A DNA stretch of 64,000 nt, taken from positions 57,051,159-57,115,158 of the forward strand of contig OX031059.1 in the NCBI GenBank assembly GCA_943736015.1, given 5' to 3'. Origin of the DNA: Tridacna crocea. Lineage: Eukaryota; Mollusca; Bivalvia; Cardiida; Cardiidae. Positions 9,257-60,845 of this stretch are shown here, piece after piece; position 1 is the first letter of the stretch, and every line of letters begins with the position of its first letter. A program made the position numbers and the translations under genes. The notes under the pieces were generated by a model. The model saw only the letters and a list, made by a program, of their open reading frames with translations, did no database searches and had not been told where the DNA came from.

Positions 9257-9485
9257 TTGACCCTTTACCAAACAATCCCTGCTTTTTACAATCCTAAGAT
9301 AGAAGCCTTTTGAAAACATTGTGGGAAAAGGAGAAAATGCTAGTAACCAGCATTTTCTCCTTTTCCCACAATGTTTTCTACCCTGCTGGAAACAAGTTTC
9401 AATTTTTGAGTTGTGTTTATTTTGTAGAATGCAAGTGCTTTCAATTCCGACCAGTCTAAAAATTTGTTGTTTGGTAAAGGGTTAA
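9257..9485 (+). mobile_element. hp-A MITE
   Basis: Left flank TTGA (9257-9260), right TTAA (9482-9485). Hairpin complete with one mismatch (GCTAGTAACCAGC). The right arm reads TTCCGACCAGTCTAAAAATTT. Confidence 0.92.
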
Positions 9486-23414: not shown

Positions 23415-24938
23415 TGCAAGTGCACTTCCTCCTGCAAACAACTAACTGCACTTTCTCCTGCAAACAACTATGTGCACTTCCTCCTGCAAACAACTGAGTG
23501 CACTTTCTCCTGCAAACAACTAACTACACTTTCTCCTGCAAACAACTATGTGCACTTCCTCCTGCAAACAACTGAGTGCACTTTCTCCTGCAAACAACTA
23601 ACTACACTTTCTCCTGCAAACAACTATGTGCACTTCCTCCTGCAAACAACTGAGTGCACTTTCTCCTGCAAACAACTAACTACACTTTCTCCTGCAAACA
23701 ACTATGTGCACTTCCCCATGCAAACAACTAAGTGCTCTTCCTCCTGCAAACAACTAAGTGCACTTCCTCCTGCAAACAACTAAGTGCTCTTCCTCCTGCA
23801 AACAACTAAGTGCACTTCCTCCTGCAAACAACTAACTGCACTTCCTCCTGCAAACAACTAAGTGCTCTTCCTCTGGCAAACAAATAAGTGCACTTCCCAT
23901 GCAAACAACTAACTGCAGTTCCTCCTGCAAACAACTAAGTGCCCTTCCTCTGGCAAACAAATAACTGCACTTCCTCCTGCAAACAGTTAAGTGCACTTCC
24001 ATTGGCAAACAAATAAGTGCACTTCCCATGCAAACAATTAACTGCACTTCCTCTGGCAAACAACTCACTGCACTTCCTCCTGCAAACAACTAAGTGCACT
24101 TCCTCTGGCAAACAAATAAGTGCACTTTCTCCTGCAAACAACTAACTGCACTTCCTCCTGCAAACAACTAACTGCACTTCCTCCTGCAAACAACTAACTT
24201 CACTTCCTCCTGCAAACAACTAAGTGCTCTTCCTCTGGCAAACAAATAAGTGCACTTCCCATGCAAACAACAAACTGCAGTTCCTCCTGCAAACCCTTAA
24301 GTGCACTTCCTCCTGCAAACAACTAAGTGCTCTTCCTCCTGCAAACAACTAACTGCACTTCCTCCTGCAAACAACTAACTGCACTTCCTCCTGCAAACAA
24401 CTAACTTCACTTCCTCCTGCAAACAACTAAGTGCTCTTCCTCTGGCAAACAAATAAGTGCAAACAACAAACTGCAGTTCCTCCTGCAAACCCTTAAGTGC
24501 ACTTCCTCCTGCAAACAACTAAGTGCTCTTCCTCCTGCAAACAACTAACTGCACTTCCTCCTGCAAACAACTAAGTGCACTTCCTCTGACAAACAACTAA
24601 CTGCACTTCCTCCTGCAAACAACTAAGTGCACTTCCTCTGGCAAACAAATAAGTGCACTTCCCATGCAAACAACTAACTGCAGTTCTTCCTGCAAACAAC
24701 TAAGTGCACTTCATCCAGCAAACAACTAAGTGCACTTCCTCTTGCAAATAACTAAGTCCACTTCCTCCTGCAAACAACTAAGTGCACTTCCTCCTGCAAA
24801 CAACTGAGTGCACTTCCAATGCAAACAACTGAGTGCACTTCCTCCAGCAAACAACTGAGTGCACTTCCTCCAGCAAACAACTAAGTGCACTATCTCTTGC
24901 AAACAATTAAGTGTATTTTCTCCTGCATACAACGAAGA
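23415..24938. repeat. 26-bp minisatellite, ~58 units
   Basis: The unit is TGCACTTCCTCCTGCAAACAACTAAG with variants (CTCTGGC, CCATGC, TTTCTCC). A 78-bp three-unit higher-order repeat runs at 23466-23710. An eight-unit block ending at AAACCCTTAAG (24291) recurs ending at 24487, with an 11-bp deletion. Because 78 is divisible by three, a 103-codon frame stays open in the first part. It is a repeat shadow, not a gene. Confidence 0.95.
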
Positions 24939-32600: not shown

Positions 32601-32835
32601 TTAACCCATTACCACACAATACCAAACTTTTGATGACCCTGAGAAAGAAGCCTTTAGAAAACATTGTGGGAAAAAGAGAAAATGCTGGTAACTAGCATAA
32701 ATTTTTATCCTTTTCCCACAGTGTTTTCTACTCTTCACAAAACAAATTTCAAATTTTCACTCACTTTTATTTTGTCGTCTGCAAATGCTTTAGATTTGGA
32801 CAAGCCTAAAATATTGTCGTTTGGAAATGAGTTAA
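32601..32835 (+). mobile_element. hp-A MITE
   Basis: TTAA 32601-32604 and 32832-32835. A 9-nt insertion at the hairpin centre (AACTAGCATAAATTTTTATCC) breaks the tip. Confidence 0.92.
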
Positions 32836-33717: not shown

Positions 33718-34419
33718 TATACCCCCCCAAAACTCTGTTTGGGGGGTATATAGGAGTCAGCTTGTCGGTTGGTCCGTCCGTCGGTCGGTCGGTCTGTAGC
33801 TTTTTGTCCGCTCTGTTTCTCATAAACTACTGGACAAATTTTATTCAAACTTCACAGGTAAACTCAGTATCAAGCAGAGATGTGCATATGAAATGTTGGT
33901 TATGGTTCATTGATTTTTCACTGAGTTCTGGCCCTTTCATGAAATTTCTCGTCCGCTCATTTTCTCATCAACTATTGAACAGATTTGGTTCAAACTACAC
34001 AGATAGACTCAGTATAAAGCAGAGATGTGCATATTTTATTTTGGTTATAGTTTATATAGGTTTCATGGAGTTATGGCCCTTTGATGATTCTGGACAAATT
34101 TCTTTTTCATACTTGAATTTTGTCCGGAGCATATCTCCAAAACTATACTAACTAGGGTTATGAAATTTCATGGGTGGATAGATCTCAACGAGGGGGAGTG
34201 GCTTGCACACGAATCATAACTCTTGCTAGCTTAATTTTTGAGTAATTGCCCTTTGTTGTTTTTCATACTTGAATTTTGTCCGGAGCGTATCTCCAAAACT
34301 ATACTAGCTAGGGTTATGAAATTTCATGGATGGATAGATTTCATCAAGGGGGAGTGCAGTGCACAGGAATCATAACTCTTGCTAGCTTAATATTTGAGTT
34401 ATTGCCCTTTGTTGTTTTT

Positions 34420-36586
34420 AGCTCACCTGAGCACGAAGTGCTCATGGTGAGCTATTGTGATCGTGCTGTGTCCGTCGTCCGTCGTCCGTCGTCAACTTTT
34501 TACCTTGTGTACGCTCTACAGGCCACAGTTTTAGTCGGATACTCATGAAAGTTGGTCAGGATGTTTGTCTCGATAAAATCTCGGACGAGTTCGAAAATGG
34601 GTTATGTGGGGTCAAAAACTAGGTCACTAGGTCAAATCTTAGGAAAACCTTGTGTACGCTCTAGAGGCCGCATTTTGAGTCGGATACTCATGAAAGTTGG
34701 TCAGGATGTTTGTCTTGATGATATCTCGGACGAGTTCGAAAATGGGTCACGTGGGGTCAAAAACTAGGTCATCAGGTCAAATCTTAGAAAAACCTTGTGT
34801 ACGCTCTACAGGCCGCATTTTGAGTCCGATACTCATGAAAGTTTGTCAGGATGTTTGTCTCGATGATATCTCGGACGAGTTCGAAAATGGGTCACGTGGG
34901 GTCAAAAACTAGGTCACCAGGTCAAATCTTAGAAAAACCTTGTGTACGCTCTAGAGGCCGCATTTACAGTCGGATACTCATGAAAGTTGGTCAGGATGTT
35001 TGTCTCGATGATATCTCGGACGAGTTCGAAAGTGGGTCACGTGGGGTCAAAAACTAGGTCACCAGGTCAAATCTTAGAAAAACCTTGTGTACGCTCTAGA
35101 GGCCACATTTTCAGTTGGATACTCATGAAAGTTGGTCAGGATGTTTGTCTGGATGATATCTCGGACGAGTTTGAAAATGGGTCACGTGGAGTCAAAAACT
35201 AGGTCACCAGGTCAAATCTTAGAAAAACCTTTTGTACGCTCTTAGAGGCCACATTTTCAGTCGGATACTCATGAAAAATGGTCAGAATGTTTGTCTGGAT
35301 GATATCTCGGACGAGTTCGAAAATGGGTCACCTGGGGTCAAAAAATAGGTCACCAGGTCAAATCTTAGAAAAACCTTTTGTACGCTCTAGAGGCCACATT
35401 TTCAGTCGGATACTCATGAAAGTTGGTCAGGATGTTTGTCTGGATGATATCTCGGACGAGTTCGAAAATGGGTCACGTGGGGTCAAAAACTAGGTCACCA
35501 AGTCAAATCTTAGAAAAACCTTTCGTACACTCTAGAGGCCACATTTTTAGTTGGATACTCATGAAAGTTGGTCAGGATGTTTGTCTCGATGATATCTCGG
35601 ACGAGTTTGAAAATGGGTCACGTGGGGTCAAAAACTAGGTCACTAGGTCAAATCTTAGAAAAACCTTTTGTACGCTCTAGAGGCCACATTTTCAGTTGGA
35701 TACTCATGAAATGTGGTCAGGATGTTTGTCTGGATGATATCTCGGATGAGTTTGAAAATGGGTCACGTGGGGTCAAAAACTAGGTCACTAGGTCAAATCG
35801 TAGAAAAACCTTTTGTACGCTCTAGAGGCCACATTTTCAGTTGGATACTCATGAAAGTTGGTCAGGATGTTTGCCTGGATGATATCTCGGACAAGAACGA
35901 AAATGGGTCATGTGGGGTCAAAAACTAGGTCACTAGGTCAAATGTTAGAAAAACCTTTTGTAGGCTCTAGAGGCCACATTTTCAGTCCCATACTCTTGTA
36001 AGTTGGTCAGAATGTTTGTCTTGATGATATCTCAGACAGGTTTGAAAATGGGTCAGTGGGGGTTAAAAACTAGGTCACCAGGTCAAATCTTAGAAAAACC
36101 TTGTATATGCTCTGGATGCCACATTTTCAGTCTAACACTCTTGAAAATTAGTCAGAATGTTTGCCTTTATAATATCTTGGATGAGTTTGAAAATGGGTCA
36201 TGTTGGGTCAAAAACTGGGTCAATAGGTCAAATGTTATAAACACCTTTTGTATGCTCTGGAGGACACATTTTCAGTCGGATACTCCTAAAACTTGTTCAT
36301 AATATTTGTCCTGGTGATACCTTGAATGAGTTTGAAAATGGGTCATGTGGAGTCAAAAACTAGGTCAATGGGTCAAATATTAGAAAAACCTTGTGTACAC
36401 TCCAGAGGCTACATTTTCTGCCTGATACTCTTCAGACTTGGTCAGAGTGTTTGTTTTGGTGATGTCTCAAAAGTGTTTGATGATGGGTAATGTCTGATAA
36501 AAAACTAGGTCACTGGGAAACTAGATAGTGCATGTTTGGTCAATAAACTCAGGTGAGCGATTTCAGGGCCATCATGGCCCTCTTGT
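34420..36586 (+). mobile_element. HINE-like element (AGCTCACCTGAG..CTTGTT), nested
   Basis: Head hairpin AGCTCACCTGAGCACGAAG / GTGCTCATGGTGAGC, GTCCGTCGTCCGTCGTCC, a 145-bp array, tail CTCAGGTGAGCGATTTC + AGGGCCATCATGGCCCT (36565-36581) + CTTGTT. Flanks TTGTTGTTTTT / AATACTTGAATTT match uninterrupted units TTGTTGTTTTTCATACTTGAA, placing the insertion in a T-run. Confidence 0.94.
34510..36540 (+). repeat. 145-bp tandem array, ~14 units
   Basis: Unit landmarks are TACGCTCTAGAGGCCACATTT, GGATACTCATGAAAGTTGGT, CAGGATGTTTGTCT, GATATCTCGGACGAG and GGGTCAAAAACTAGGTCAC. The period is a near-constant 145 bp. The central units are very similar; the last four are progressively diverged. Each unit holds a 71-codon open frame that ends in the next unit because 145 is not a multiple of three; these are not genes. 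Two stray monomers occur at 54730-55060 and two at 29808-30060. Confidence 0.95.
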
Positions 36587-37244
36587 TAATACTTGAATTT
36601 GGTCCGGAGCGTATCTCCAAAACTATACTAGCTAAGGTTATGAAATTTCATGGGTGGATAGATCTCACCAAGGGGGAGTGCAATGCACAGGAATCATAAC
36701 TCCTGCTCACTTAATTTTTGAGTTATTGCCCTTTGTCGTTTCTAATATTTGAATTTGGTCCGGTGAATATCTCCAAAACTATACTAGCTAGGGTTATGAA
36801 ATTTCATGGATGGATAGATCTCATCAAGCGGGGGTGCAGTGCATAAGAATCATAACTCCTGCTCCCTTAATTTTTGAGTAATTGCCCTTTGTTGTTTTTC
36901 ATACTTGAATTTTGTCCGGAGCGTATCTCCAAAACTATACTAGCTAGGGTTATGAAATTTCATGGATGGATAGATCTCATCAAGGGTGAGTGCAGTGCAC
37001 AGGAATCATAACTCTTGCTAGCTTAATTTTTGAGTTATTGCCCTTTGTCGTTTTTCATACTTTAATTTGGTCCGGTGTATGCCCCAGCTTAACAACTTGG
37101 GGTAAGACGGGCGTATCTTGCGACAATTTGCCGCTCATGTTCAACTCTTACTTTTGTACTCAACCATTCTGCATTCTGTGACAAAGACCTGTTTGGTGGC
37201 AAGGAGCTGGTGGGGGGTATGATCACGTTGAGTGATAGCTCTAG

Positions 37245-40284: not shown

Positions 40285-40308
40285 TCTCAAAACTTAATCC
40301 ACCTTTTT

Positions 40309-41734
40309 AGCTCCACTGGCCCAGTGAAGGCCAGCAGGCTTATGTCATGGCCCGTTGTCCGTCGTGCGTCCGTCCGTTAACTTTTTCTTTAAACATCTTC
40401 TCTGAAACTACCCATCCAATTTTGATGAAACTTCACAAAGATAATCCTGCCATGGTCCTCTTCAGAATTTCTTGAAAGAATTTAATTTCTTCAAAAACTG
40501 AAAAATTTTGAAAATCTTTGAAAATCTTCTTGTCTGAAACCGTAAGGCCTTAGGGCTACCAAATTTGGCATGTAGCTTTATCTAGTAGATCTCTACCAAG
40601 TTTCTTCAAATTATAGCCCTGGGGGTCAAAATTGGCCCCACCCTCAGGGGTCACAAGTTTTACATGGGCTTATATAGGGAGAACTTTAAAATTCCTCTTC
40701 TACCTAGGCATAGGGCCTAGGGCTACCAAATTTGGCATGTTGTTTTATCTAGTGGACCTCTACCAAGAGTGTTTAAATTATAGCCCTGGGGTCAAAATTG
40801 GCCCCGGGGGGGGGGGGGGGGGGGTAACAAATTTAACATGGGCTTATATAGGGAGAACTTTCAAATCTTCTTGTACCTAGCTATAGGGGCTATGGCTATC
40901 AAATTTTGCATATATCTTTATCTAGGGGGTCTCTACCAAGGGTGCCCAAATTATAGCCCTGGGGTCAAATTTAGCCCCGTCACAGGGGGTCACAAGTTTT
41001 ACATGGGCTTATATAGGGAAACTTTAATAATCTACTTGTACATAGCCATAAGGCCTAGGGCTACCAAATTTTGCATGTAGCTTTATCTAATAGGCCTCTA
41101 CCAAGAGGGCCCAAATTTTAACTTTGGGGTCACGGGTTTTACATTGGCTTTATAAACCTGTCTCATGGGTCACATATTTTACAGGGCCTTTTTTTGAGCA
41201 AACTTGTGTTACAGGGCTTTTTATTGGGCAAGATTAAAAAATCTTCGTGTTTATAACCACACATTCTAGTTTCATATTGTAGGTTTCGGGTCAAAATTGG
41301 CTCCATCCAGGGATCACAAGTTTAACATGGGCTTCAAAATATAGTCACTTCAACTTAAACATTAATCAAGGGAAATAACTCTTTTTATGAAATATAAAGT
41401 TTGGTACTATTTACCTCCCTTGATTATCAAACTGAATTGATACATGATGGTAGACATTAAGTTTTTTGATAGAAAATATTCTGTTTTCAAGTGTGATTCA
41501 TTTTGATGCTAATAGTTACGCTCACATGAGGTGAATAAAGAGTAAGGTTTCTATCATTCAGCTTATTTTTCCAAGGATTTTACCTTTCATGCTAATGAAT
41601 TAACCTGCTTGTATTGCCTGACAGTGTTCATTGTTTTTGTAGGCCCTCTTTTTCATGGTCATGAACACTTCAATTTGTGTGGTAAAGAATTAAAAAGCCA
41701 GTGGAGTGATACAGGGCCATTATGGCCCTCTTGT
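40309..41734 (+). mobile_element. HINE-like element (AGCTCCACTGG variant)
   Basis: Head AGCTCCACTGGCCCAGTG, then GTCCGTCGTGCGTCCGTCC. Four to five ~155-170-bp units are marked by GGGCTACCAAATTTGGCATG and TACATGGGCTTATATAGGG. Tail CCAGTGGAGTGATAC + AGGGCCATTATGGCCCT (41713-41729) + CTTGT. The subterminal pair CCACTGG/CCAGTGG replaces ACCTGAG/CTCAGGT of the other subfamily. A 19-nt G run lies at 40806-40824. Confidence 0.9.
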
Positions 41735-45180: not shown

Positions 45181-45399
45181 TTAACTCTACGGCACAAGAA
45201 AAATTTACACCTGTCTAAATGGATGACAAAATAAATGTTACTGAAAAATTTAATTTTCCCTTTGGAAGGGTAGAAAACATTGTGGGAAAAGGAGAAAATG
45301 AAATGCTGGTTACCAGCATTTTCTCCTTTTTATACAATGTTGTCAAAAGGCTTTTTCCTAGGGATGTCAAAACTTGGGAATGTGTGGCAAAAGGGTTAA
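45181..45399 (-). mobile_element. hp-A MITE
   Basis: TTAA 45181-45184 and 45396-45399. Five bases (GAAAT) are duplicated in the first hairpin half (GAAAATGAAATGCTGG). End GTGTGGCAAAAGGG. Confidence 0.92.
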
Positions 45400-45626
45400 T
45401 CCTTTACCACACAATGACAAATTTTAACAACCCTTGGGAGGTGGCCTTTTGAAAACTTTCTGGGAAAAGGATAAAATGCAGGTAACCAGCGTTTTCTCCT
45501 TTTCCCACAAAGTTTTCTTCTGTATCAAAGAAAAACTGATTATCATTTGAGCTACTATGAAATTATAATCTGCAAATATGTTCGATTAAGATAGGTCTAT
45601 AATTCTGCTGTGTGGTAAAGGGTTAA
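45396..45626 (+). mobile_element. hp-A MITE, abutting previous copy
   Basis: Shares TTAA 45396-45399; right TTAA 45623-45626. Hairpin lightly mutated (GGATAAAATGCAGG / CCAGCGTTTTCTCC). Confidence 0.92.
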
Positions 45627-55060: not shown

Positions 55061-55504
55061 CTTATGTCTACATTCCCACAGTATGTCTAAAGTTTTTGTG
55101 GTATTTGTATATTTGTAGCACTATGAGTTCAATATTGAATTTTGAAGACCATGATTGTATTGTATTTTTTGCAAAGCCAACAAAAGTAAACCCAATTAAA
55201 CAAAATTTTTCTAAGACAAATGATTTTTATTGTACCACTCGGATACGGAATTTAGGCATGTTGAAATACACAGGATGAGGCCATCGATTGTGGAAATATT
55301 ATTTCTTTATTAAAAAAGAGTTTCACCTGCTGATAGCCCTCTATTGGCACAATGATAAAGACAAATTTTGTGCACCAATTGTTTGGGCTTTTTCATTTCA
55401 AAATCAGTTTGTACCTTGGCTTGTTTGTCCCATGATTGGGTGCTATTCCATTGGATTGTTCATTAATATCTATAGATTTGAATAATGGATTGTAATTTTG
55501 GGAA

Positions 55505-56772
55505 TTAATCCTTTACTGAATGATCTCTGGATTTCAAGAACCTGAGATGGAATCCTTTTGAAAACATTGTGGGAATCAGAGAAACCAGCATTTTCTCCTT
55601 TTCCCTTATTGTTTTCTACCCTGCTTGAAACAAAATTCAATTTTTGGGTTCTGTTTATTTTGTGGTCTGCAAGTGCTCTCAGTCTTGACCAGTCTCAATT
55701 TTTAGCTCACCTGAGCATGAAGTGCTCATGGTGAGCTTTTGTGATCGCCCAATGTCTGTTATGCGTCATGCGTCTGTTGTCCACAATTTCTTTAAACATC
55801 TTCTCCCAAACCACTAGGCCAATCTTGATGAAACTTGGCAGGGATGTTCCTTGGGTGAAGCTCTACCAAAGTTGTTCAAGAGATTGAATTCCATCCTTAA
55901 CTCTGGTTGCTATGGCAACCAAAGGGGAAAAATGGAAAAATCTTTGAAAATCTTCTTCTCTGAAACTAGAAGGCGTAGAGCTTAGATATGTGGTTTTCAG
56001 TATCTCCTAGTGGACCTCTACCAAGATTATTCATAATGATGCCCCTGGGGTCAAAACTGGCCCCGCCCCGCGGGTCACAAGTTTGAAACATAGCAACAAA
56101 GAAGGAAAACTTTAAAATTCTTCTTCTCTGAAACTAGATGGCGTAGAGCTTTGATAGTTAGTATGAAGCATCTCCTAGTGGACCTCTACCAAGAATGTAT
56201 GTATGATGCCCCTGGGGTCACAAGTTTGAAACATAGGAACAAAGAAGGAAAACTTTAAAATTCTTCTTCTATGAAACTAGAAGGGGAAAAGCTTTGATAT
56301 TTATTATGTAGTATCTCCTAGTGGACCTCTACCAAGAATGTTCATATGATGCCCCTGGGGTCAAAACTGGCCCTGCCCCAGGGGTCACAAGTTTGAAACA
56401 TAGGAACAAAGAAGGAAAACTTAAAAAATTAAGGAGTAGAGCTTTGATATTTGGTATGAAGTATCTGCTAGTTGACCCCTACCAACTTTGTTCACATGAT
56501 GTCCCTGGGGTCCAAACTGGCCCAGCCTCGGGGGTCACAAGTTTGAAACACAGGAACAAAGAAGGAAAACTTTACAAATATTTTTCTCTGAAACTGTAAA
56601 TGGTAGAGCTTTGATATTTCATTATGTAGCATCTTCTAGTGGACCTCTACCAAATACGATATGTTGATCTTTTCGGAAAAGAAGAATTTTCATTGTAGAC
56701 CTTTACTGCTTAGTACTCAGGTGAGCGATATAGGACCATCATGGTCCTCTTGTTTTTGTTTGGTAGAGTTAA
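55505..56772 (+). mobile_element. hp-A MITE containing a HINE-like element
   Basis: TTAA 55505-55508 and 56769-56772. Left arm TCCTTTACTGAATGATC, hairpin with a centre deletion (AGAGAAACCAGCATTTTC), right arm to ACCAGTCTCAATTTTT at 55703, then resumes TTGTTTGGTAGAG after the insert. Confidence 0.93.
55704..56755 (+). mobile_element. HINE-like element (AGCTCACCTGAG..CTTGTT)
   Basis: Head hairpin AGCTCACCTGAGCATGAAG / GTGCTCATGGTGAGC. Five units marked by GACCTCTACCAA near 56013, 56181, 56323, 56474 and 56642 (142-168 bp). Tail CTCAGGTGAGCGATAT + AGGACCATCATGGTCCT (56732-56748) + CTTGTT. It sits in the T-run of an hp-A right arm. Confidence 0.94.
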
Positions 56773-57096
56773 ATCTTTATGGCCAAAGATATCTCAAAAT
56801 CATAGTTTTCACATATATTTACATGGTGTCACTCTCTATCCAACATGCATTCTACTGCCGAGGGATGTCACTCTTGACTCTTCCTAATGATCAAAGGGAG
56901 ACCAACGATACACAAATAATTCTAACTACTCCATGAGTACTCCTCCTTCAACTGAAAAAGTACTCATTTGCTTAGTAGGTTGACTTTCTTGCAAATATTT
57001 GAATAACATTTCTTTTTCTCTCAAATTATTAATTCCGCACAATAGTTTCCTTTACAAATACCACTCCAGCATTTTCAACACTTTGATGTAAGACAC

Positions 57097-57608
57097 TGCA
57101 GTTACTTTATACATGGATATTTATGTGTGGCAAAAATTTTGCAAAATACGGATTATGGACATTTTTTGTGCTGAAATGTTTGCGAACTCAAGGAATTCAT
57201 TATTTGTTTGTATACTTTGTGGTAAAATATGCTAAGAGAATTTTCCAAATGCAGGAAATTGCAAAACTTTCTACTTATATAGTATCTTTTTTTGAGCTTA
57301 GCTATACAGTTTCTTTTTCAGCTTAGCTGAATTTTATTTTCTGCAAAATGCTTTCAATTTCAGTGTAAAATTTTAATATTTGGAGTTAAGTTAAAAATCT
57401 TTTTTCTGTTAAATTATATGCTGCTAAGTATGACTCACGGTCCTTTCGCAGACAGTGTAGATCAAGATAAAGTTGCATAGAATTTGAGGTTTAATACTGG
57501 ATCTCCACTGTCTGATAAGGACATATTTCTCTTCCTCCCTCCTCTTAGAAAAAGCAAAAGTTAAGTTTTTACTAATGGCTTGAAGTTTCATATCACTTAT
57601 TTAGCAGG
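57097..57608. other. spacer with hp-A end fragment and K palindrome
   Basis: 57322-57389 is an hp-A right end (TTTTCTGCAAAATGCTTTCA .. TTTGGAG + TTAA). 57450-57525 holds K arms (CAGACAGTGTAGATCAAGAT / ACTGGATCTCCACTGTCTG). The rest is unassigned. Confidence 0.55.
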
Positions 57609-57810
57609 TTAACCCATTAACACAATCCCTATGTTTGACAACCCTGAGAATGAAGCCTTTCAAAAACCAGCATTTTCTCCTTTTCCCACAATGTTTTCTA
57701 CCCTTCACCAAAAAAAAAAAAAATCCAATTTTCAATCACTTTTATTTTGTTGTCTGCAAATGCTCTCGATTTGGACAAACCTAAAGATTTGTCATTTGGT
57801 ATTGAGTTAA
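57609..57810 (+). mobile_element. hp-A MITE, first hairpin half deleted
   Basis: TTAA 57609-57612 and 57807-57810. GCCTTTCAAAAACCAGCATTT shows the deletion ending at the hairpin centre. A14 run in the right arm. Confidence 0.92.
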
Positions 57811-57922
57811 GGGTTGACTTGAACTTCCAATGTTTCTCCAAGAAAATCCAAATGTGAAAATTACAGAAAGTATCAGCTGGACAGAACTCTTACAACTTTT
57901 CTGATTTGAGGGAACCTGCTGT

Positions 57923-58171
57923 TTAACTCTTTTCTCCTTAGATACTCATTTCTACGCATTGCTTGTAGGAGCCTTTGAAAAACATTGTGGCAAAAGGTGA
58001 AATTGCTCGTGACAAGGAATTTTACCTTTTCCCATAATATTTTCTATACTATCTAAAGGTGTCGTATACGCATAAAGGTGTCGTATACACATAAGAAACG
58101 GCTGCATCCTTGCTGTTATTTAGGGTCATTTAGAGATAACCATAGAAATGCCTTATTGGGTAAAGGGCTAA
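57923..58171 (+). mobile_element. hp-B MITE with arm duplication
   Basis: TTAA 57923-57926; right flank CTAA. AAAGGTGTCGTATACGCATA is directly repeated as AAAGGTGTCGTATACACATA. Hairpin right half mutated (GACAAGGAATTTTACC). Confidence 0.9.
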
Positions 58172-58401
58172 CTCTTTACCAGATGCCAAAATGCTACCAT
58201 GGTTTAGATTTAAGAGCATTTGCAGACAACATATTAAATTTAGCTCATGCGATGGAAATTGTCACTGACAGAATAGAAAACCATGTTGGAAAAGGAGAAA
58301 ATGCTGGGTACCTACTAGCATTTTCTCCTTTTCCCACAAGGCTTTCAAAAGGCTCCATCTTCAGGGTAATTAAAACCAGAAATTGTTTTGTAAAGAGTTA
58401 A
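58168..58401 (-). mobile_element. hp-A MITE, abutting hp-B
   Basis: Left flank CTAA shared with the previous copy, right TTAA 58398-58401. Hairpin tip extended (GCTGGGTACCTACTAGC). Confidence 0.88.
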
Positions 58402-58560
58402 CGCTTTACCATTTGATTCCATTTTTCAATGACCTCGAGAAGAAGGCCTTTTTGTAAACAATATGGGAAAAGGAGAAAATGCTGGTAAGCAATTGATCAT
58501 TGAAAAAGAAAAGTTTTCTATTGGACCATATTTAAATTGTTGGTAGCAAATGCTTTCAAG
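58398..58560 (+). mobile_element. hp-A MITE, truncated
   Basis: Shares TTAA 58398-58401. Left arm and first hairpin half present (GGGAAAAGGAGAAAATGCTGG); second half gone; breaks off at GCAAATGCTTTCAAG where the next copy starts. Confidence 0.8.
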
Positions 58561-58794
58561 TCTTTACTACACAATGACAACTTTTAATGCACCTGAGGAA
58601 GAATCCTTCAGAAAACATTGTGGGAAAGGAGAAAATGCTGGTAACCAGCATCTTTTTCCTTTTCCCACAAAGTTTTCTAAGTTTTCAAAGCAAAACTGCA
58701 CCAAATCATTTGAGCCACTTTGAAATTGTCGTCTGCAAAATTAATGCATTCAGTTTGGATAGGTCTAAAATTTTGCTGTATGGTAACAGGTTAA
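58561..58794 (+). mobile_element. hp-A MITE (GCACCA..TTTGAGCC subfamily)
   Basis: TCTTTACTACACAATGACAAC start without TTAA; right TTAA 58791-58794. Hairpin with CATCTTTTTCC in its second half. Confidence 0.88.
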
Positions 58795-58830
58795 TTTAGT
58801 CAAGTACAAATTTCCTTGTTTTGTAAAGAG

Positions 58831-59012
58831 TTAACTTTACCACTCAATGAGATTTTAGACTTGTGCAATTTGAAAGTAACTGCAGACTGCAAATTAGATG
58901 CAGTATAAATGGTTAGTTTCATCTCTAAATTGGTAGAAAACATTATGGTAACAGGAGAAAATGCTGTGGTACCAGCATTTTCTTTTTTTCCCACAATATT
59001 TTCAAAATAAAA
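58831..59012 (-). mobile_element. hp-A MITE, 3'-truncated
   Basis: TTAA 58831-58834 (also ends a scrap TTGTTTTGTAAAGAG). Hairpin tip GCTGTGGTACCAGC. The element stops at CACAATATTTTCAAAAT plus an A10 run. Confidence 0.82.
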
Positions 59013-59078
59013 AAAAAAGCCAAGAGAACATCAAGAGAAGTGAATACAGTATTTAAATTAATGATTTGAAGCAATTTT

Positions 59079-59825
59079 TTGTGGTATTTGTCAAAGACAA
59101 TACCACTATGAGTTCAAGATTGAATTTTGATAACCATGTATCTTATTTTGTACAAAGCCGAAGGAAATAAACCCAGTTAAACTCATTTTTTCTTAGACAA
59201 ATGACTTTTTTACAGTGGCACTCAGATATGTAATTTGAAATGGCATGTTAAAATACATTGGGCAAGGCCATCGATCGTTGAGATACTTATTTTTGATCGA
59301 AAATAGCTTCTCTCGCTCATAGCCTTTTATTGGCGCAATGATACAAATTTGCCAACTGACCCTGGGCTTTTTCGTTTCAAAACCAATTCGTTCCATAGCT
59401 TGTTCATCCTATGATTGCGTGCTACTTTATTTGATTGCTCATGTATAGATCGAGGTAATTGATTGAAATGTTAGAAATTAAATGTAAAAGGCTAGAGATA
59501 TTTCAAAATTATAGTTTTCAGGAACGAACTTAATTTTGTTTGATATATCAACAGGATTTCTCTTTCTATTTGTCATGCATCCTACTATCAAGGGGCATTA
59601 CTCCTGCTTCCTCCTAATGATCAAAGGGAGACCACTTATACAAAAATAAACCAAACTTTGTCAAGAGTACTCTCCCTTCAGCCGAAAAGGCATTCATTTG
59701 CTTAGAGGGTTGACTTTTAAGCCAGTATTTGAACAATATGTCTCTGTTTCTTTCAAACTATTAATTCCACACAATGGGTTTCCTTGACAATTACCATTTC
59801 AGCGTTCTCAACGCTTTGATTAATT
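59079..59825. repeat. J repeat copy 2, uninterrupted
   Basis: Continuous counterpart of 55085-57096. GTGGTATTTGTCAAAGACAA .. GGCCATCGATCGTTGAG .. TCCTAATGATCAAAGGGAGA .. ACTATTAATTCCACACAAT. At 59478-59481 it carries a single TTAA where copy 1 holds the hp-A insertion. Nature unknown. A minus-strand frame (59791-59949 and beyond) looks weakly protein-like near one end. Confidence 0.85.
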
Positions 59826-60419: not shown

Positions 60420-60620
60420 TTAACCCATTACAACACAAACCCCTACTTTTGACTACCCTGAGAAAGAAGCTTTTAGAAAACATTGTGGGAAAAGGAGAAA
60501 ATGCTGGTAACCACAAAACTCACAAAACAAATTTCAAATTTTCTGCCACTTTTATTTTGTTATCTGTAAGTGCTTTCGGTTTGTACAAGCCTAAAATTTT
60601 GCCATTTGGTAGAGAGTTAA
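60420..60620 (+). mobile_element. hp-A MITE, second hairpin half deleted
   Basis: TTAA 60420-60423 and 60617-60620. ATGCTGGTAACCACAAAACTC shows the deletion starting at the hairpin centre, the mirror image of 57609-57810. Confidence 0.92.
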
Positions 60621-60845
60621 CTCTTTCCCAAACGAGCCCTGGTTTTTACGTGTCTGCAGTAAAAGTCTTTTGAAAACACTGGGGGAAAAAGGAGAAATTG
60701 CTCATAACGAGCAATTTCTCCTTTTTCCGCAGTGTTTTCTACCCTTTTTGAGAACTTTCTGCCAATTTCTCCAAATCAGCAATTGTTGGCTGCAAACTCT
60801 TTCGGTTTTGAAGGGTCCAAAATTTATCGTTTGGAAATGGGTTAA
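60617..60845 (+). mobile_element. hp-C MITE, intact, abutting previous copy
   Basis: Shares TTAA 60617-60620; right TTAA 60842-60845. CTCTTTCCCAAACGAGCCC start, hairpin GGAGAAATTGCTCATAACGAG paired, end CGTTTGGAAATGGG. Confidence 0.93.

Follow-up and report, generated by a model that had tools for sequence, protein, structure and literature searches.

Anatomy of the nested locus

We analyzed a stretch of 64,000 nucleotides (nt) of the Tridacna crocea genome (contig OX031059.1, forward strand, positions 57,051,159 to 57,115,158), hereafter called the window, in which three transposable elements are nested within one another. A HINE, that is, an element of the nonautonomous Helentron kind, lies inside hp-A, a TTAA-flanked miniature inverted-repeat transposable element (MITE), and hp-A in turn lies inside a HINE-like element, J copy 1 (J1). 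Each of the three layers belongs to a kind of element already known, and the locus itself is ordinary. The features given below are in window coordinates and on the forward strand. The left part of J1 (55093 to 55504) consists of a 5' T-run, the 5' subterminal inverted repeat (subTIR) GTGGTATTTGT (55098 to 55108), and the body up to the hp-A target site, where the left TTAA occupies 55505 to 55508. The left part of hp-A (55509 to 55703) begins with its terminal inverted repeat (TIR), TCCTTTAC, and ends in a run of five T (55699 to 55703). The HINE (55704 to 56752) carries the 5' subTIR AGCTCACCTGAG with its inverted copy, central repeats of about 143 to 150 nt, the 3' subTIR CTCAGGTGAGC (56716 to 56726), and the palindrome AGGACCAtcaTGGTCCT, and it ends in CTCTTG. 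Another five T (56753 to 56757) and the 3' TIR of hp-A (GTTTGGTAGAG) make up positions 56753 to 56768, followed by the right TTAA (56769 to 56772) and the right part of J1 (56773 to 57087), which includes the 3' subTIR ACAAATACCAC (57054 to 57064), a decayed 3' palindrome, and the end TTTGAT. J1 is followed, after about 2 kb, by J copy 2 (J2; 59076 to 59820), an uninterrupted copy with a 5' subTIR and its inverted copy, a diverged 3' subTIR, the 6-bp 3' palindrome AGCGTTctcAACGCT, and a single TTAA (59478 to 59481) at the homologous, unoccupied site.

The three TTAA positions given in the initial annotation were borne out in the sequence. When J1 and J2 were aligned with the insert kept, a long gap started at the left TTAA, and its right edge was blurred by a small slip and a short chance match within the HINE. 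When the insert was removed and one TTAA was kept, the two copies aligned without a gap across the junction (GGAATTAAATC and GAAATTAAATG). The insert was correctly named as hp-A: its left part matches many sites in the window (66 to 84% for the longer matches), and the 3' end of hp-A follows the HINE. The internal palindrome of this hp-A copy is damaged by a 10-nt gap relative to other hp-A copies. The later entry of the HINE into a T-run of hp-A also holds, with hp-A to the left of 55704 and with five T, the hp-A 3' TIR, and TTAA to the right of 56752. The end of 56755 assigned to the HINE falls inside the right T-run, where the boundary cannot be placed more exactly; the core of the HINE spans 55704 to 56752.

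J as a dispersed HINE-like family

J1 and J2 have the same orientation, start about 4 kb apart, and can be aligned over their full length. These features favor the first event proposed in the initial annotation, in which J was one host segment that was duplicated before hp-A entered one of the copies and the HINE entered hp-A. Such a history is now highly improbable. When the 1.05-Gb genome of the same organism was searched with J2, 40 of the 6184 first-look candidates were scored. These 40 places are on 15 contigs, and the 39 besides J2 are all 91 to 93% identical to it. With the left part of J1, the 39 best other genome places were 74 to 77% identical. An alignment of 31 other J copies was assembled from 16 of the 39 places found with J2, 14 of the 39 found with J1, and L035, one of 20 sampled ten-kb stretches of the genome (L021 to L040), which were taken at round coordinates except for two that adjoin the window. 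As judged by eye, these copies coincide at their ends and differ in their flanks. TTTTT precedes the 5' subTIR in 23 of the 31 copies, and the exact 11-nt subTIR is likewise found in 23 of 31. The 3' end is recognizable by eye in 29 copies; the strict pattern of 3' subTIR and palindrome occurs in 11, with T next in 9 of these 11. The 300-nt flanks of J1 and J2 scored against each other like sequences shuffled as two-nucleotide blocks: 126 of 200 shuffles reached the score on one side and 107 of 200 on the other, compared with 0 of 200 inside J. In addition, J1 differs from J2 by 23.2% and from other J copies by 20.5 to 29.8%, so it is no closer to its neighbor than to copies elsewhere. A local duplication of J was therefore rejected on the evidence of flanks, dispersal, copy ends, and distances, to which the probable youth of J2, described below, is added.

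The structure of J is that of a HINE-like element. At their 5' ends, both J1 and J2 have a T-run followed by GTGGTATTTGT, which recurs in inverted form at their 3' ends. The inverted match of J1 covers 12 of 12 nt, and that of J2 covers 14 of 16 nt; in each case, 0 of 300 shuffles and 1 of 500 real window stretches were as good. When limited to 12 nt, J2 matches at 11, which was equaled by 1 of 300 shuffles and 6 of 500 real window stretches. The family consensus, GTGGTATTTGTC gaa GACAATACCAC ... GACAAATACCAC, contains subTIRs of 12 to 15 bp, the 5' subTIR being accompanied by its inverted copy, and in J2 this 5' pair folds with -8.3 kcal/mol. The 3' palindrome AGCGTTctcAACGCT is present in both consensus types, A and B; in J2, it has a folding energy of -5 kcal/mol, and 11 of 200 shuffles were as good. 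J also has defined ends and T flanks, and no target duplication was seen. Several observations weigh against this classification. The 5' inverted copy and the 3' palindrome of J1 have decayed, and 106 of 200 shuffles equaled the palindrome. At the 3' end of J, no alignment was obtained for L062 and L070, and J has no central tandem repeats. Moreover, the 3' subTIR of the J consensus is about 23 nt from the end, not 38 to 60 nt as described for mite HINE families (PMC4067079). Because of this last difference, we call J HINE-like.

Because the flanks are unrelated, the ends carry subTIRs, the copies are dispersed in the genome, and the copy ends coincide, J is a transposable element of about 750 bp rather than duplicated host DNA, and J1 and J2 are independent insertions. 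J occurred in 2 of the 20 sampled stretches, in one of them with its right half only; extrapolated to the genome, this would amount to thousands of copies, though the margin is very wide. The partial copy, in L038, starts near the TTAA site, is without TTAA, and was read as truncated and kept outside the 31 aligned copies.

The unoccupied TTAA site

At the columns of the J2 TTAA, 26 of the 31 other J copies have TTAA, including 15 of 16 type A copies, 10 of 13 type B copies, and L069. The five exceptions each differ by little: in L055 and L058, TTAA is shifted by one column, and L062 and L064 (TCAA) and L035 (TGAA) have one substitution each. Because of this distribution, the single TTAA is the ancestral state of the J family, so hp-A used and duplicated a TTAA that was already present. 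One reservation applies: the full-length J2 matches are uninterrupted by choice, and the count shows the ancestral letters rather than the frequency with which the site is filled.

A lone TTAA is ambiguous in itself, as repair after piggyBac excision can restore a single TTAA and leave no footprint (PMC7351741). J2 might thus once have carried hp-A and lost it by precise excision, in which case its TTAA would be a healed site. We regard this as exceedingly improbable. TTAA is shared by most other copies, J2 most likely postdates the insertion of hp-A into J1, and, with an ancestral TTAA, no excision needs to be assumed. Both the junctions in J1 and the ancestral single TTAA support the claim that hp-A entered J1 with duplication of TTAA.

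hp-A as a TTAA MITE family

hp-A is about 220 bp long, with TIRs such as CCCTTTACCAAACAA and TTGTTTGGTAAAGGG (copy at 348 to 568) and the consensus start CCCTTTACCAAAC. Intact copies contain an almost perfect palindrome of about 67 nt in their interior, which at 9310 to 9380 folds with -34.4 kcal/mol (0 of 200 shuffles as good). With 5 of 11 hand-picked copies as seeds, a profile gave 200 raw matches in the window at an E value of 1e-3, or 110 without overlaps, covering 18,803 bases (29.4% of the window). Among 47 full-length window copies, which include the 5 profile seeds and exclude the split copy in J1, TTAA located within 3 nt of the element end was found on both sides in 22, on one side in 19, and on neither side in 6, with a chance expectation of 5.2% per side. 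The 20 sampled genome stretches contained 145 nonoverlapping matches at an E value of 1e-5, and their 64 full-length copies had TTAA on both sides in 35, on one side in 23, and on neither side in 6. The TTAA flanks of hp-A are not due to chance. In the 20 genome copies nearest to the hp-A of J1, TTAA directly followed the 3' TIR in 16, as counted by eye; the left TTAA belonged to the query and was hence no test. At the same E value, hp-A covers 12.1% (bootstrap range, 8.2 to 16.3%) of the 18 sampled stretches distant from the window, 180 kb in total. Exact patterns of the hp-A palindrome had no matches in viral_contigs and genome_contigs, neither of which was built from eukaryote genomes.

TTAA duplication together with TIRs that end in CC[C/T]T is the piggyBac rule stated in PMC2872659, and hp-A shows both TTAA duplication and a 12- to 19-bp TIR with a CC[C/T]T end. 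By these terminal features, hp-A fits a piggyBac-type MITE. TTAA duplication alone would suit the Kolobok superfamily equally well, and Kolobok elements are known from molluscs (PMC9587614). However, the same source describes Kolobok ends as 5'-RR and YY-3', whereas hp-A starts with CC. An assignment of hp-A to Kolobok rather than piggyBac is therefore unlikely and was rejected on its ends. Among the piggyBac/TTAA MITEs already described is, for example, CMITE of corals, which resembles hp-A in its small size, its TTAA duplication, and its TIR starting with CC[C/T]T. A pair of alleles with and without CMITE has been reported, comparable to the filled and empty sites of the present locus. As far as the consulted descriptions extend, the two families are set apart by length, about 100 bp for CMITE versus about 220 bp for hp-A, and by the palindrome of about 67 nt in hp-A.

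Two further features of hp-A were observed in the window. Abutting full-length neighbors have one TTAA in common at 45186 to 45622 and at 60424 to 60840. At least two hp-A types are present, with TIRs CCCTTTACCAAAC versus CCCATTACCACAC (348 to 568 and 32605 to 32830), and the central palindrome is common to both.

The inner HINE

The subTIRs of the HINE at 55704 to 56752, AGCTCACCTGAG (55704) and CTCAGGTGAGC (56716), form an inverted pair with 11 nt in common. This is one short of 12, and the pair was counted among subTIRs of 12 to 15 bp in inverted order; the rule for the HINE family is at least 11 bp in PMC4067079. The inverted copy beside the 5' subTIR folds with -14.2 kcal/mol (0 of 200 shuffles as good), and the 3' palindrome has a 7-bp stem with -6.4 kcal/mol (3 of 200 shuffles as good). 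The element occupies a T-rich site without target duplication; a T-run is present on both sides, and the number of T that belongs to the element is ambiguous. SubTIRs, an inverted copy, a 3' palindrome, and T flanks are all among the HINE features listed in two published sources (PMC4067079; PMC7492417). A genome search with this HINE gave 9542 first-look candidates, of which 40 were scored; among these 40, the seven best near-full-length matches other than itself were 84 to 89% identical. Its end motifs recur, in some copies with substitutions, among the fetched genome copies, with 16 copies compared at the 5' end and 6 at the 3' end.

Both the element at 55704 and J resemble described HINEs and nonautonomous Helentrons (DINE-1, HINE-Mo, Cg_HINE, and Pearl) in their subTIRs, inverted copy, and 3' palindrome, as well as in their T flanks, with no target duplication seen and no long open frame found. 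J differs from them in being without central repeats and in having its 3' subTIR nearer the end. The central repeats of about 143 to 150 nt in the 55704 element are comparable to those of about 160 bp in Pearl and 140 to 180 bp in Cg_HINE, a likeness drawn from published descriptions. A second HINE with similar ends and about 13.6 central repeats of 145 bp lies at approximately 34420 to 36586, inside a tandem array of 156-bp units (34103 to 37075). The intact 156-bp unit represents a second unoccupied HINE site, in which a T-run is present and nothing but T could have been duplicated. In addition, a diverged element at 40306 to 41132 starts at a T-run, has 165-bp repeats, and is about 67% like the HINE.

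Divergence and order of insertion

The order of J1, then hp-A, then HINE is fixed by the nesting, and the Kimura distances (K) from family consensus sequences, with their bootstrap ranges, agree with it. K was 0.185 (0.15 to 0.22) for J1 against the consensus of the older type B (13 copies), 0.161 (0.104 to 0.227) for the hp-A of J1 against its 20 nearest copies, and 0.058 (0.043 to 0.074) for the whole length of the HINE against its 6 nearest full-length copies. The 5' part of the HINE gave the same value, 0.058 (0.028 to 0.094), against 17 copies. For J2, K was 0.040 (0.028 to 0.057) against the consensus of the young type A (16 copies). J2 differs from each of 17 fetched copies elsewhere by only 5.7 to 7.3%, compared with 23.2% from J1. 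Because the K range of J2 does not meet that of hp-A, the insertion of J2 most likely followed the entry of hp-A into J1, to judge from these distances. The initial annotation had placed the doubling of J first, with both copies present before hp-A arrived; its succession of hp-A and then HINE holds, and its placement of J2 most likely has to be reversed. The observation itself is confirmed, and the interpretation given to it is partly supported.

Some points weigh against these dates. K was 0.26 for J1 against the young type A consensus and 0.256 for its hp-A when 18 window copies were combined into a mixed consensus. K would also be too high if the true parent subfamily of hp-A or J1 were absent from the fetched copies, which are those nearest to the query. 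Finally, the ranges of the HINE and J2 overlap, and K does not give their mutual order. Even if K is too high for hp-A, hp-A must be older than its inner HINE, whose K of 0.058 is not below the 0.040 of J2. We infer time from divergence throughout this comparison.

Surroundings of the locus

For coding elements in the window, 10 of its 52 open frames of at least 85 codons were scanned against Pfam, with one weak match (E value of 0.03) below the cutoff. A tRNA scan of the window with bacterial settings gave no hits, and neither did Rfam at the gathering threshold. A separate tandem array at 23418 to 24937 contains 58 copies of a 26-bp unit. At the genome level, contigs C1 to C18 together make up nearly all of the 1.05 Gb, and the genome therefore seems to have 18 chromosomes.

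Proposed history and its meaning

Altogether, the locus is a HINE inside a TTAA MITE inside a HINE-like element, and the following account of these three elements is, as a whole, very probable. J1, an old copy of the dispersed HINE-like (nonautonomous Helentron) family, inserted first. hp-A, a MITE with CCCTTTACC-type TIRs, then entered J1 at the TTAA inherited within the J family, which was thereby duplicated, probably through a piggyBac-type transposase acting in trans. Later, the HINE with AGCTCACCTGAG subTIRs entered the T-run near the 3' end of hp-A, presumably by a rolling-circle mode, leaving no recognizable target duplication. J2 is a separate and most likely younger J insertion with an unoccupied site; it is neither the sister of J1 nor a witness of a doubling of J before the arrival of hp-A.

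The locus serves as a worked example of dating nested insertions, and it also carries a caution. A paralogous empty site supports target duplication, but the succession of events can be read from it only when both copies are sisters. In the present nest, the outermost element itself belongs to a mobile family, and the copy with the empty site is most likely the more recent of the two. It is also possible, though we put it forward tentatively, that hp-A is among the largest TTAA MITE expansions known, making up about one-eighth of the 1.05-Gb genome, and that its palindrome does something for the element. If this is true, the palindrome, which is common to the TIR types, might aid transposition or feed small-RNA silencing, and the nest would exemplify a genome where a MITE of this kind and Helentron-type repeats keep inserting into each other.

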